A stretch of 64,000 nt of DNA. It comes from Delphinus delphis (Eukaryota; Chordata; Mammalia; Artiodactyla; Delphinidae). Below, in pieces: positions 57,317 to 64,000 of this stretch. The stretch spans positions 12,827,958 to 12,891,957 of the forward strand of contig NC_082694.2 in the NCBI RefSeq assembly GCF_949987515.2. Direction: 5' to 3'. Under the pieces are notes generated by a model. That model was given only the letters and a program-made list of their open reading frames with translations, was not told where the DNA came from and made no database searches. A program made the position numbers and the translations under genes. How positions within the stretch are numbered: the stretch's first letter is position 1; every line of letters begins with the position of its first letter.

Positions 57317-57505
57317 TTATAAGGCTTCTTGAACCAGGGCCACGAGTGTCGGGGGCCCTTTAGTGCTTGTTTTTCGCAGGCCCAGCTCATCACAGTCGAG
57401 GTCTGAGGTTTCTTGAAGTCTGTGCCTTCGCAGTTTTCTTCTCCACTGCATGCAGAAGGCAGCAACTTCCAGTTCCTCCGGATCTGGGGAAGGCTGTCTC
57501 AAACC
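57317..57505 (-). CDS. Vinculin-like protein, last coding exon
   Basis: On the - strand a strong acceptor (CATCTCTCTCTCCTCCAG) precedes 57505. The exon reads GLRQPSPDPEELEVAAFCMQ, then WRRKLRRHRLQETSDLDCDE and on to LVALVQEAL and TAA (57317-57319): 62 codons plus stop, phase 0 at its start. AAFCMQWRRK aligns with the vinculin C-terminal segment AGFTLRWVRK. Vinculin ends a few residues later, whereas this protein continues about 40 residues. The tail of vinculin binds F-actin and acidic lipids; the same job here is only inferred. Joined to 60811-60928 the frame is kept. Confidence 0.6.
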   Translation of the reverse strand, partial: GLRQPSPDPEELEVAAFCMQWRRKLRRHRLQETSDLDCDELGLRKTSTKGPPTLVALVQEAL

Positions 57506-57740
57506 CTGGAGGAGAGAGAGATGATTAAGTACTAGGAGGCGCTGTGCACTCTCTCCCAGTGTCAGCTCATTGGAGCTCCTAGGGGATTCTTCTGAGTGAT
57601 GCTGGGACTGGTTTTCTGATATTTTAGCCCTAAATTGAATAGAGAGCAAGGAATCGTGTTTGGAGAGGTCCTCTGAATTGGAGCCCACTCATTCTTAAAG
57701 GACAAGCACAACAGGACAAAGGATCTTGTCTATCACGATA

Positions 57741-57761
57741 GAATGTTCTGGGACTGTAGTT
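57741..57761 (-). promoter_or_regulatory. ZNF143-like motif 1
   Basis: The - strand reads AACTACAGTCCCAGAAC, close to the ZNF143/STAF consensus ACTACAATTCCCAGAATGC but one base short. Confidence 0.35.
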
Positions 57762-58096
57762 AATTAAAAAAAAAAAATCTCTCTCTAACCCAAATTCTGC
57801 CTCCTGGATCTTGCTTTATTCATTTTGCTTTATGCAAACTATCCATGGGTCTTTAGCCAGCGGCCTAAGCAGAGCCAGGACACAGGTGTACACAGCAAGC
57901 ACTCAGCCTGGCCCTCAGGTTCTCCTGCACTCAGATGGCCTGGGCATTGGGACCTGGGGACTGGCCCTGCCCTGGGTGGTACTGCAGGATCTGCGGGAGG
58001 CTGTGGCTGTGGCCACGCTGGCGTGCTGGCGGGAGAGATGCTCACTGATCCATAGGGCCAGTCCTGAGCTTTTCTCTCAGCCTTCTTTATATTCAA

Positions 58097-58117
58097 GAAA
58101 TTCTGGGACTTGTAGTT
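58097..58117 (-). promoter_or_regulatory. ZNF143-like motif 2
   Basis: The - strand reads AACTACAAGTCCCAGAATTT, which matches the consensus ACTACAATTCCCAGAATGC at all but two positions. Confidence 0.45.
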
Positions 58118-58209
58118 CAGGTATGCACATTTTCCAAATGCTTTTCACTGGGTGTGTCTATTTTATGTACTCTTTGAATTTAATCGGTACAAAGTTTCTT
58201 TAAACTTGA

Positions 58210-58580
58210 AATGAAAATTCCCGTTCTATTTATTTAGTGCCTCCATGCACTTGCCCACTATTCTAGGTCTCTGGCTTCATGAAGTATACATTCTAATAAC
58301 AGAGCCAGACAAACACATAAAAGTGAGGAAAAGAAGCAGACAACTACAAAATGTGATAAGTGCTACGAAGGAACCATACAAGGTACTAAAGCAGGGGACA
58401 CTTGGTGCGATTTCATTTAGATATAGTGGGGGGTATTTCATCCCTTTTGAGGAGGTGGAATTTAAGTTTGGGCCTAAAAGATAAGAAGGAGACAGACATG
58501 AGACAATTTGGTAGAAGTGGAGGGGCAGAAATGCATCTCACACAGGTAGAATAGCACATGTGAAGGCCCTGGCAGGGTAT
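58210..58580 (+). mobile_element. Possible ancient repeat
   Basis: TTATTTAGTGCCTCCATGCA, AAAATGTGATAAGTGCTACG and GCACATGTGAAGGCCCTGGC follow the pattern of an ancient mammalian LINE/SINE remnant. Family uncertain. Confidence 0.4.
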
Positions 58581-59280
58581 TCTTTTGGGAACCCAAATAT
58601 TTCCCATTTCCTGCCTTCACTTAGGACATAGAAAGCTGGAAAGGGAGTTGCTCCCACCCTAACAACAAGAAAAAGTCAGATAATCCACAAAATCATAACT
58701 TTTCTTGAACTTATTAGAGAGTGAGGTTGAAGGGCAACTCACTGGACTGAAATCTAAGAAAAGACAGCCACTTTCAGGGAGAGGCAGGGGCCCAGCACTG
58801 GCTTCCTTAGGATAGAGCATGGGAGGAAGATGAGACTATCATATACCTGATCAGAAGATTTTAGCTAAAATTCTTAACAAATTGCTGTGGCCAATTGTAG
58901 ATGAGTGTGAGTGTATAGGACCCATGAGAGCCACAACTAAGAAAAATCCACACCTGTTCACAGGCTTTCTCCAGGACCTCTCCTGGCGCTCATGACAAAG
59001 ATTTGGGACAGGGCAGGAGGTTGGGACTGTCTCCCTTGTGGAGCAGGCTTTGGGAAGAGGAGCAGCCATCACTGCAACAAAGGCACAGATCTCCGCCCAC
59101 ATCTGCCTCTTCATGGCACAAAAGCTCAAGTCACTGAAGGAAGGACAGCAAATCCTGTCATCCCCAGGGCACAGGTCAAGACCACTGCAAGCGGAGAAAG
59201 AAAACAGAATACAGCCCTCTACCTCGGGGGAAGAAGCAGAAAACCATCCTGAATCCATAACTGTTAAAAGTCTCCTATTG

Positions 59281-59451
59281 GGCTTCCCTGGTGGCGCAGT
59301 GGTTGAGAGTCCGCCTGCCGATGCAGGGGACACGGGTTCGTGCCCCGGTCCGGGAAGATCCCACATGCCGCGGAGCGGCTGGGCCCGTGAGCCATGGACG
59401 CTGAGCCTGTGCATCCGGAGCCTGTGCTCCGCAACGGGAGAGGCCACAACG
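59281..59451 (+). mobile_element. Short CHR-2-type SINE without an A tail
   Basis: GGCTTCCCTGGTGGCGCAGT start, B box GGGTTCGTGCCC. Target duplication AAAGTCTCCTATTG at 59267-59280 and 59452-59465. The usual end ACCGCAAAAA is missing; the right copy of the duplication follows GGCCACAACG directly. Confidence 0.9.
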
Positions 59452-59994
59452 AAAGTCTCCTATTGCTGAGGGAGGAACAGGGCCTGCCTACAATTGAGGC
59501 TGAGTGAGAACAACAATGAACACTACCACCTCCTCTCCAGACCAGCAATCATCGAGTCACAAGTAACAAGTAGGCTATGGAGAGGCAAGAACATTGAGAG
59601 AGAACACCCCTGAGGTGCACACTCACAAGGAAAGCCTCAAGCTGACAGTGGAACAGGAACATTGATGAAAACCCTCTGGTAACCCAGACCCCACACTGAA
59701 CACAAAGTAATGCTAGAACATTTGAATCCAGTGGTTACCCAAGGATGACTGTAACAATGCCAACCAAACTCAGCTCAACTCCTGACTATATTGACTCACA
59801 CCCCCACCTCCCACCACACACACACACTAAAGGCCTAGAAGAAGAGGTGGGCCCATTTTCAGGCATACATAGTATTCATTTAGTCTCTGCCAGTCTATGC
59901 ATAATGTCAAGTTTTCAATGGAAAATTAAAAGACACACAAAGAAGAAGAAGGATCTGCTGTCAAGAGACAAAGCAATCAAAAAACCCAAACTCA

Positions 59995-60347
59995 TGGGAC
60001 TTCCCTGGTGGTGCAGTGGTTAAGAATCCGCCTGCCAATGCAGGGGACACAGGTTCCAGCCCTGGTCTGGGAAGATCCCACATGCCGTGGAGCAGCTAAG
60101 CCCATGCGCTACAACTACTGAGCCTGCGCTCTAAAGCCCGTGAGCCACAACTACTGAGCCCACGTGCCACAACTACTGAAGCCCGTGCACCTAGAGCCTG
60201 TGCTCCGCAACAAGAGAAGCCACTGCAGTGAGAAGCCCGCGTACTGCAACAAAGAGTAGCCCCCACTCACCACAACTAGAGAAAGCCCGCACGCAGCAAC
60301 AAAGACACAATGCAGCCAAAAATAAAATAATTTAAAAAAAAAAAAAG
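59995..60347 (+). mobile_element. Full-length CHR-type SINE
   Basis: GGGACTTCCCTGGTGGTGCA start, A-rich tail. AAACCCAAACTCA flanks it on both sides. Confidence 0.93.
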
Positions 60348-60810
60348 AAACCCAAACTCAGATATGAGGCACATGTTGAAACCATCAGATAGGAAGTTAA
60401 AAATAACTATGATTTATATATTAGTGACTTTAGTGGAAAAAGTAGACAAAATGCATGAACAGATGGTGAGTTTTAGCAGAGAGACAAAAACTATGAGAAA
60501 TAAACAGAGATGCTAAAAATAAGAAAAAATGTGGTAACAGATTGAAGAATGCTTTGACAGGCTCATCATCAGATTGGACACAGCTGAAGAAAGAATCAGT
60601 GGAACTGAAGGTAGGTTGATAGAAATTAACCAAACTAAAATACACAAGAAATCAGGTGACAGGTTTGGGTAAGAAATGCAGTTGAATTTAATAGCTAAGA
60701 AGCAGGTAGAGTTGCCTCATGAATGTCTGCAATGTTGCTCTCAGCCTGTGACCTGAGTCATGGTCCTGTGCATGTCTGTGCCAGTGTCCACCCTTGGGAT
60801 TAGCACTTAC

Positions 60811-60928
60811 CCGGAGACTGGCGGCTTCTGCAGCCCTCACAGTCTTAGAGGCAGCACGGAGGAGCCGCTGTGCATTTTCCACCAGGAGCTCTTCAGAGGA
60901 CTTGCTTCTTGCCAAGGAGGCCTTTACT
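60811..60928 (-). CDS. Vinculin-like protein, penultimate coding exon (tail helix)
   Basis: On the - strand the acceptor CTTTCCTCCTGTCAACTCCCAAG (its last 20 bases) precedes 60928 and the donor CGG|GTAAGT follows 60811. The 118 nt are one base plus 39 codons: VKASLARSKSSEELLVENAQ, then RLLRAASKTVRAAEAASLR. Compared with the vinculin tail as I recall it (VKATML..., EMLVHNAQNLMQ, KETVREAEAASIK), about 16 of the 28 residues from LLVENAQ to the end match without gaps. No stop or frameshift. The gene's earlier exons were not found up to 64,000 and should lie to the right. Which member of the vinculin/alpha-catenin family it is remains open; it is too diverged for VCL itself. Confidence 0.62.
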
Positions 60929-61170
60929 CTTGGGAGTTGACAGGAGGAAAGCAGTTAACATTATACCAGGTAAGAGGCATAATCTCAAATAAACAAATAC
61001 CAGATGGTTTTACAATGTGAGCCTCTTCCAGAAAGCTGGGATGCCTTTGTAGGGACTATTCAGAGAAAGAAAGTTCTTAAGGTGTAATTTAACATTTTAA
61101 CATAAAATTTATATTTTGATACTAAGAAAGTATGACTCATATAGAATCTATAAATTAACAAGAAGTATGT
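60929..61170. other. Presumed intron of the vinculin-like gene, nothing else seen
   Basis: The 242 bp to the right of the penultimate exon contain its branch/pyrimidine region (60929-60970) and no recognised repeat. Confidence 0.5.
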
Positions 61171-61440
61171 TTTTAAAAAATTTTTATTGAAGTATAGTTG
61201 ATGCGCAATATTATATGTTACATGTGTACGATATACTGATTTACAGTTTTTAAAGTTTATACTCCATTTATAGTTATTATAAAATATTGGTTATATTCCC
61301 CATGTTGCACAATATATCCTTGCAGCTCATTTTATACATGATAGTTTGTACCTCTTAATCCCCTACCTTTATATTACCTCTCCCCACTATCCTCTCCCCA
61401 CTGGTAACCATTATTTTGTTCTGTATATCCGTGAGTCTGC
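61171..61440 (-). mobile_element. Antisense L1 3' fragment
   Basis: TTATTGAAGTATAGTTGATG, GCTCATTTTATACATGATAG and CTGTATATCCGTGAGTCTGC. AAGAAGTAT plus a T run is present on both sides. Confidence 0.8.
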
Positions 61441-61679
61441 TAAGAAGTATTTTTAATGAAAATAACTGAAGAGACCTAGCAGAATAAATGCCAACATCCA
61501 TACCTAATGAAAGGGAACAAGAAATGTTGTCTAGAATTGCATTCAGGACTTAAAGTAAAAGTTCTAATCAAAGATCAGACTGCTATTTCTTAATAGAATC
61601 ACACACCTCAATGATACTTGCTTTAAACTGAGTGTAACTGAATTTAGTGAGACAAGTTGTTTTTCACCAATGAAAATGA

Positions 61680-62226
61680 AGATGCTATACATAAAATAGA
61701 TAAACAACAAGGACCTACTGTATAACACAGGGAACTGTGTTTGATATCTTGTGATAACCTATAGTGGAAAAGAATATGAAAAGGAATAGATAGATAGGAC
61801 TTCCCTGGTGGCACAGTGGTTAAGAATCCGCCTGCCAGTGCAGGGGACATACATTCAATCCCTGGTCTGGGAAGATCCCATATGCTGCAGAGCAGCTAAG
61901 CCTGTGCACCACAACTACTGAGCCTGTGCTCTAAGCCTGCGTGCCACAACTACTGAAGCCTGCACGCCTAGAGCCCATGCTCTGCAACAAGAGAAGCCAC
62001 TGCAATGAGAAGCCTGCGCACCGCAACAAAGAGTAGCCCCCGCTCGTCGCAACTAGAGAAAGCCCGTGCGCAGCAACGAAGACCCAAAGCAGCCAAAAAT
62101 AAATAAATTGATTTAAAATAAAAAAGAATAGATAGATTGATTGATTTAGATAAAACTGAATCACTTTGCTGTACACCTGAAACTAACACAACATTGTAAA
62201 TCAACTATACTTCAATAAAAATTAAA
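61680..62226 (+). mobile_element. L1 3' end split by a SINE
   Basis: AACAAGGACCTACTGTATAA leads in and CTGAATCACTTTGCTGTACA with AACACAACATTGTAAATCAA ends it. A SINE sits at 61797-62124 with GAATAGATAGA on both sides. Confidence 0.85.
61797..62124 (+). mobile_element. Full-length CHR-type SINE nested in L1
   Basis: GGACTTCCCTGGTGGCACAG start, complete body and tail AAAAATAAATAAATTGATTT. Confidence 0.92.
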
Positions 62227-62380
62227 AAGAAAATGAAGATGCTGTGAAACTTAAGTGACTAACTTTGGTAAAATCTCAAGACTTCCAGATCCTTTAGAGA
62301 ACTGGGAACTTGATAAATGTACCTGTATTAATCATGCCTTTTTATTTTCTGTGTTTCTGATGCACTATCTTAGGGCCATC

Positions 62381-62819
62381 TGATGTTGGAAAGACTGCCC
62401 CTCCCAGGGTTAGCCAATTCTTAGAGTAAACCACTTGCCTGCAAGTGCACTTATACATGCAAACCAACCAATCCGAAGTTCACACCCCCAACCTTCTCCT
62501 TTATAGCGCTCTTATACTCTGGGCCACTATTCCCCTGCCCTAATCACCCCAGAGCCAGGTGCCAGACAGCTAGAGATAATCTCTATACTCCAGAGCCCAA
62601 ATTCAAATTAACCAATCCTAAACCTGTTTAGCCTACTTCCCCTGACTTGTCCATTCCTTCCCACGAAAACACAGTAAAGGATTTGTCCATGCTTTCCCCT
62701 CACTCCTTCTGCTTTTTGACTGACCCTGGTGCTTCCCTATGTGGTCCTACCGACATGGTTCCTGTTTCTAAGGGTCCGTGAGGGATTGTCTTCCTTGTTT
62801 TCTTCCTTCTTCCTTGTCA
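62381..62819 (+). mobile_element. Probable solo LTR (class I endogenous retrovirus)
   Basis: 439 bp starting TGATGTTGGAAAGACTGCCC and ending CTTCCTTGTCA, flanked by a 4-bp duplication CATC (62377-62380, 62820-62823). C/T-rich with AACCAATC boxes, as in many gammaretrovirus-like LTRs. No internal viral sequence. Family not identified. Confidence 0.55.
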
Positions 62820-62823
62820 CATC

Positions 62824-63631
62824 CATGTTTGCATGTCCTACTATACCTGATTTAAACAAATCCGGAGTACCCTTACAGCAATACCCATATTTGAAATGCT
62901 AAAATTAATTACAGTTCCTGTATCTTAAGTAGAAAAAATCTGGTAGCTAATTGTGAGATGATTTTGTGCCTGAAATATTATTTCCTAGAGAACAGTAACC
63001 AGGCTTTGTGTTTAGTTTAAAAACAATTTATATACCCTGGTCTTGGCGATGTTATTTTTATGCCTCACAATAATTGATAATAGTCTTAACTACCAAGCTT
63101 TCCCATAATATATTACTAATAAACGTTTGTTACTGATGAATATGCCACTGCAGGTATTAAGGGACTTGGGTGGAAATGAAACCATCCTATACTTCTATTC
63201 TGGTGTTCTATATTATCAACGTGAAAACTGTTATATGGAGACAATGACCAAAAACTGTTCAACTCCAGCACAAGGCTTATGTTAAGATTAATTCATGGGG
63301 CACATTAAATGAATTAATCTTAACATAAGCCTTGTGCTGGCATAGTTTTTCTTAGGCAAATGACATTTAAAATGCTTTCACTTTGCAATTAGTGTATTTT
63401 TAGAGATAACCAGCTTGTTTGTTAGATATGATTTGTATAAAAACAAATAGAGAGCTAATGGTGAAAACGTAAACACGATTGTAAAGTAGAGATCAGTCAT
63501 CTGTGCTTGTATAGTAACCCTGAAGTGTTGTGAGCCCAGCAGCACCACTGGAGTCACTGTTATGAAGGGAGGAGGGACCGATGTTGAAGGAGAGCCTCAG
63601 TTCTGATGTATTTGATTCTTAATCCTTATGG
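62824..63631. other. Intergenic or intronic sequence around the hairpin
   Basis: Apart from the inverted repeat at 63265-63340, no repeat family or coding exon was recognised. Confidence 0.5.
63265..63340. repeat. Perfect 32-bp inverted repeat (hairpin)
   Basis: The left arm 63265-63296 (starts CCAGCACAAGGC) is the exact reverse complement of the right arm 63309-63340 (ends GCCTTGTGCTGG). A 12-nt spacer, 63297-63308, separates them. Pairing stops on both sides of the arms. Confidence 0.97.
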
Positions 63632-63747
63632 GGACTCAAGGACTCCGTGCTTCCACTGTGGGGGGCACAGGGTCGATCCCTGGTCGGGGAACTAAGATCC
63701 CACCTGCCATGCAACACCGCCAAAAAAATAGAAAAAAATTAAAAAAA
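63632..63747 (+). mobile_element. Short CHR-type SINE
   Basis: CTCCGTGCTTCCACTGTGGG, B box GGGTCGATCCC, end CCGCCAAAAAAATAG. Target duplication AATCCTTATGG at 63621-63631 and 63748-63758. Confidence 0.9.
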
Positions 63748-64000
63748 AATCCTTATGGTTACTTTATCCTCACACCTACTCAGGAACTAGTTTTCCATGT
63801 TAAATATTTTTTCTTTCTTAAGTATATTATCAGATATGTTTGTGATACAGTGAGAAATGACAGTAGCCTAAATGTGTTTTTTGTGCTCTGTAATTATACT
63901 CTATATTTTTAACATTTGATATTCCTCAAATAAATGTAGATTCTTAGAGGATAAAAAACATTAAAAGGAGTATACAAAAGAAGGAATTATATTCCCCCTT

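Follow-up and report, generated by a model that had tools for sequence, protein, structure and literature searches.

The window analysed here is a 64,000-nucleotide stretch of the genome of the toothed whale Delphinus delphis (contig NC_082694.2, hereafter C12), and near its right edge it carries two minus-strand exons that a preliminary description, made from the letters alone, had assigned to the 3' end of an unnamed vinculin-like gene downstream of ZC3H6. These exons can be joined to five more, read by hand from seven 10-kb loci to the right of the window on the same contig, and together they make up a gene whose coding exons extend about 25 kb beyond the window edge (Table 1). In our reading the two exons close an intact gene, VINAC1, at its 3' side, to the left of TTL, and, on the sequence evidence set out below, we give the identity of the gene a probability of roughly 0.93.

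The gene model itself is the first line of that evidence. Joined, the seven exons yield 1447 codons with a sole, terminal stop, all phases fit, and six of six introns have GT-AG borders. Translation may start either at the first ATG or seven codons downstream, at what corresponds to the first residue of the pilot whale protein. Exon 3 is exceptional in that it remains open for 1089 codons with no intron, where 33 stops are expected by base composition; the longest open run among 2000 single-base shuffles was 392 codons. Inside the window, exon 6 is bounded by the acceptor ...cccaag/A and the donor CGG/gtaagt, while exon 7 follows the acceptor ...cctccag/G and closes with an in-frame TAA; the phases of the two are compatible and internal stops number zero, which bears out the preliminary description on all three counts. 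A lack of additional vinculin-like exons in the 100 kb on the right would have contradicted that description, and five are indeed present there, between 64064 and 89265 of the extended window.

Table 1. Exons and introns of VINAC1. Extended coordinates continue the window numbering past its right edge; window position 1 is C12:12827958.
Feature	Window or extended position	Contig position	Strand	Basis
Coding exon 1/7	89265-89039 (extended)	C12 about 12917222-12916996	-	exon model
Coding exon 2/7	76474-76291 (extended)	C12:12904431-12904248	-	exon model
Coding exon 3/7	75084-71818 (extended)	C12:12903041-12899775	-	exon model
Coding exon 4/7	67852-67667 (extended)	C12:12895809-12895624	-	exon model
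Coding exon 5/7	64236-64064 (extended, just outside the window)	C12:12892193-12892021	-	exon model
Intron 5, part inside the window	60929..64000, on to 64063		-	exon model
Coding exon 6/7, tail helices, VKASLARSKSSEELLVENAQ...AASLR	60928-60811		-	GT-AG borders, phase, ortholog alignment
Intron 6	57506..60810		-	gtaagt ... cctccag
Coding exon 7/7, C-terminal extension with conserved Trp and DELGLR	57505-57317		-	borders, stop, orthologs

Several other features of the locus deserve mention. The right-hand neighbour, TTL, lies on the plus strand, where five stretches from 107997 (extended) match a hand-entered human TTL sequence at 88-100%. The end of exon 3 (71818-71865, extended) carries a short tandem duplication, so that splicing could use either of two GT donors separated by 36 nt, a difference of plus or minus 12 residues. 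Within intron 5, at 63265-63340, there is a perfect inverted repeat with two 32-nt arms, 100% complementary, around a 12-nt spacer.

Membership in the vinculin family is supported by several exons jointly. The order of tail motifs claimed at the outset (VKA, LVxNAQ, TVRxAEAAS, AxFxxxWxRK) is there as described, and by themselves the two exons amount to modest evidence: the exon 6 open frame reaches 22.5 bits (E 4.4e-5), under the curated cut-off of 38.1 bits for the Pfam vinculin family (PF01044), and Pfam gives nothing for the exon 7 open frame at E <= 1. With exon 5 joined on, the tail aligns to vinculin tails of known structure at E 1.1e-14, a match that covers exons 5 and 6 and not exon 7. 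Exon 7 is backed by orthologs that align to its end, the pilot whale protein to its last residue, and exon 6 is free of gaps in the alignment with the pilot whale, pig and rat orthologs. The exon 3 frame passes PF01044 on its own (56.3 bits), and the full pilot whale ortholog scores 205 bits. Over the whole genome the vinculin profile has 44 matches, two of them right of the window on the same strand, at C12:12892020-12892196 (45.1 bits) and at C12:12901539-12902384 (56.2 bits), the latter within a 1174-codon open frame. Solved structures of vinculin and alpha-catenin match whale VINAC1 about equally (E 1.5e-28 and 3.4e-27, respectively). The term "vinculin-like" is thus right for the family and wrong if taken to mean vinculin simply, given the roughly equal match to alpha-catenin, a clade of its own and some 600 extra residues.

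Elsewhere in the genome, further vinculin matches about 7 Mb along C12 look like another family member. Two others, C5:126936202-126936939 with 12 stops and C6:112938318-112938830 with 2 stops, pack the profile of several exons into one stretch, and have the look of processed pseudogenes derived from vinculin or an alpha-catenin.

Orthologs supply the identity of the gene. The first search covered 5.8 billion proteins, and all homolog counts refer to the matches listed: at least 92 homologs of whale VINAC1 came from the first search, at least 2 new mammalian ones from the second and at least 29 from the third, at least 123 in all. The additions of the third search comprise 23 named proteins from turtles, alligator, lizards and snakes, two from birds (Calidris, Smithornis), three that are nameless and one from an oyster. 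The closest match listed is from the pilot whale Globicephala melas (98.6% identity over 1440 residues), and the humpback whale protein stands at 93.8%, both entered under the record name "uncharacterized protein"; these two values point to a toothed whale close to pilot whales. Identity is 82% for pig, 73-77% for cats and dog, 75% for siamang, 44-47% for marsupials and 33-38% for three reptiles. A rat protein recorded as Vinac1 (P0046) matches at 62% identity over 100% of the query (E 0), with the same domain order and C-terminal motif. In a tree with one VCL and one CTNNA1 row, both sequences entered by hand, and with the oyster protein placed outside, 14 VINAC1 proteins form one clade (100/100) broadly in species order. 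Because the whale protein matches a named rodent Vinac1 at full length and falls into this single clade, we assign the gene to VINAC1. The diverged vinculin-family paralogue proposed for this strand is therefore real, a seven-exon gene with its own clade. It is not unnamed: database entries for the orthologs of rat, hamster and deer mouse go by Vinac1 or "Vinculin/alpha-catenin family member 1", and VINAC1 is already known from databases.

Some observations weigh against an intact gene. The human gene bears the pseudogene name VINAC1P, a status that rests on the name; four of 92 proteins listed carry the label LOW QUALITY (Urocitellus, Erinaceus, Dugong and the deer Dama dama, the last with 951 aa); and the prediction from Kogia has only 981 aa, its first residue corresponding to whale residue 446, so that the first 445 residues are missing, perhaps through annotation or damage. 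Together with the lack of a cattle or sheep protein among the named matches listed, these are the points that would favour a VINAC1 recently dead in the whale lineage, its frame open by chance since function was lost only recently. We consider this improbable. Near-full-length predicted proteins exist in pilot whale, humpback whale, pig and cats, as protein records rather than DNA, and the whale copy keeps its 1447-codon frame and all six introns. Less probable still is an origin by processed or segmental copying from VCL or CTNNA1, with partial retrotransposition accounting for the very long intron-free exon 3 where VCL and CTNNA1 match in this genome in many short pieces: identity to the hand-entered VCL sequence is about 21% over the longest match and about 40% in two tail exons, the extra 600 or so residues have no significant match in either protein, the architecture is the same in mammals and reptiles, and reptile orthologs at 33-38% identity make VINAC1 far older than any cetacean duplication.

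The siamang protein is full length while humans have VINAC1P, and with the LOW QUALITY labels and the lack of a named cattle or sheep protein among the matches listed, repeated losses are possible. The suggestion that the gene was lost in some mammals is correct as far as the human pseudogene name goes. VINAC1 appears to be dispensable in some lineages.

The preliminary description, in naming the customary members of the family, did not include VINAC1, a large relative whose orthologs span mammals, turtles, alligator, lizards, snakes and birds. In mouse, Vinac1 presumably adjoins Zc3h6 and Ttl, and we take Gm14025 to be its older name. In the portions of the literature accessible to us we found no functional study of VINAC1, and the papers that name the gene do so there in lists or tables only. 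Mouse Vinac1 appears among the genes listed by a heart transcriptome study (PMC11381029) and among tabulated m6A changes, with the exon chr2:129038002-129039048 (PMC8560743); human VINAC1P is likewise listed (PMC11094034, PMC12388004), once as ENSG00000283698.

The architecture suggests a function. VINAC1 comprises a vinculin-type head, an M domain, the extra region of some 600 residues, which has a helical core, and a tail of five helices that matches the F-actin-bound tails of alpha-catenin and vinculin. In alphaE-catenin, according to PMC7588230, mutation of L785, I792, V796 or W859 lowers actin binding, the L785 mutation being the most severe among the three H4 residues tested. The corresponding columns of whale VINAC1 hold Thr, Ile1343, Val1347 and Trp1406, and among the 97 of 123 proteins with an alignable tail (26 have none), the Ile is kept in 92, the Val in 90 and the Trp in 79. 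We think it fairly likely, judging from these alignments, that VINAC1 acts like alpha-catenin and vinculin as an F-actin-binding, tension-bearing linker. In such a model, the tail would bind F-actin via helix 4 (Ile1343 and Val1347) and the C-terminal Trp1406, the head or M domain would be anchored to a partner at a membrane or junction, and the protein would bear or sense the tension between tail-bound F-actin and its head-side partner, while the extra region might supply further binding or length. Three points tell against this proposal: the L785 column is Thr, as it is in vinculin; 15 of the 97 tails leave the Trp column unaligned and 3 have another residue there; and the predicted structure, which begins only at residue 446, is weak (mean pLDDT, the predictor's confidence score, 59.8).

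The oyster protein raises the question of how old the lineage might be. P0123 of Saccostrea echinata (1525 aa, recorded as "catenin alpha-2-like") matches a VINAC1 profile from near the start to the end at E 1.2e-65, the quality of the middle region of that alignment not being part of the evidence. It shares with VINAC1 the motifs HPDILSP.R and DELGLR, both absent from the hand-entered human VCL and CTNNA1; HPDILSP.R occurs exactly in 86 of the 123 proteins, and DELGLR in 58 of the 97 whose tail can be aligned. In the tree the oyster joins VINAC1 at 93/92, under the tool's starred level and with a long-branch warning. By BLAST (local alignment) of the N-terminal half, the oyster is nearer to the VINAC1 of turtle, bird and wallaby than it is to CTNNA1; whale VINAC1 proteins are on a par with CTNNA1 in score, and those of pig, cat and rat fall below it.

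P0123 also matches PF05482 (Serendipity_A) at 43.2 bits, where the cut-off is 35. No match to this family was found at E <= 10 in the hand-entered human VCL and CTNNA1, in six amniote VINAC1 proteins (P0092, P0090 and P0083 at E <= 10; P0101, P0116 and P0001 at E <= 1), or in four pieces of whale VINAC1 at E <= 1; a search across the whale genome likewise gave no match anywhere, and that search shows little. PMC3820746 describes the Serendipity-alpha/Spitting Image clade as actin-binding proteins within the vinculin superfamily, and describes Sry-alpha and Spt as aligning to the central portion of both vinculin and alpha-catenin; it also names the zebrafish protein F1Q8P1 and the Xenopus protein F7CCD7. 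An old clade that unites VINAC1 with Drosophila Sry-alpha/Spitting Image is a tentative idea, one to which we would give somewhat less than even odds. If true, many animals would retain a dedicated stabiliser of F-actin in addition to vinculin, alpha-catenin and alpha-catulin, and humans would have lost it; and if VINAC1 belongs with Sry-alpha/Spt, findings on actin stabilisation in the fly embryo would gain a vertebrate counterpart, accessible in mouse, pig or lizard.

Set beside known systems, VINAC1 resembles vinculin and alpha-catenin in part. For the Serendipity-alpha/Spitting Image clade, the PF05482 match lies in the oyster relative, and none was found in the six amniote VINAC1 proteins scanned. 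Vinculin, which has its own gene on contig C16 of the whale genome, aligns with VINAC1 in three stretches (the start of the head, the central domain and the tail) and shares with it the Thr as well as the tail Ile and Val that face actin; it differs in the low identity noted above, whose longest stretch is the central one, and in having neither the extra residues before the tail nor the longer C-terminus with DELGLR. Alpha-catenin, whose CTNNA1 is likewise a separate gene, on contig C3, differs at L785, in lacking the extra middle region and in its C-terminus. At the same time, residues 17-565 of VINAC1 align with residues 17-569 of catenin alpha-1 in one stretch, and the C-terminal Trp of VINAC1 aligns with W859.
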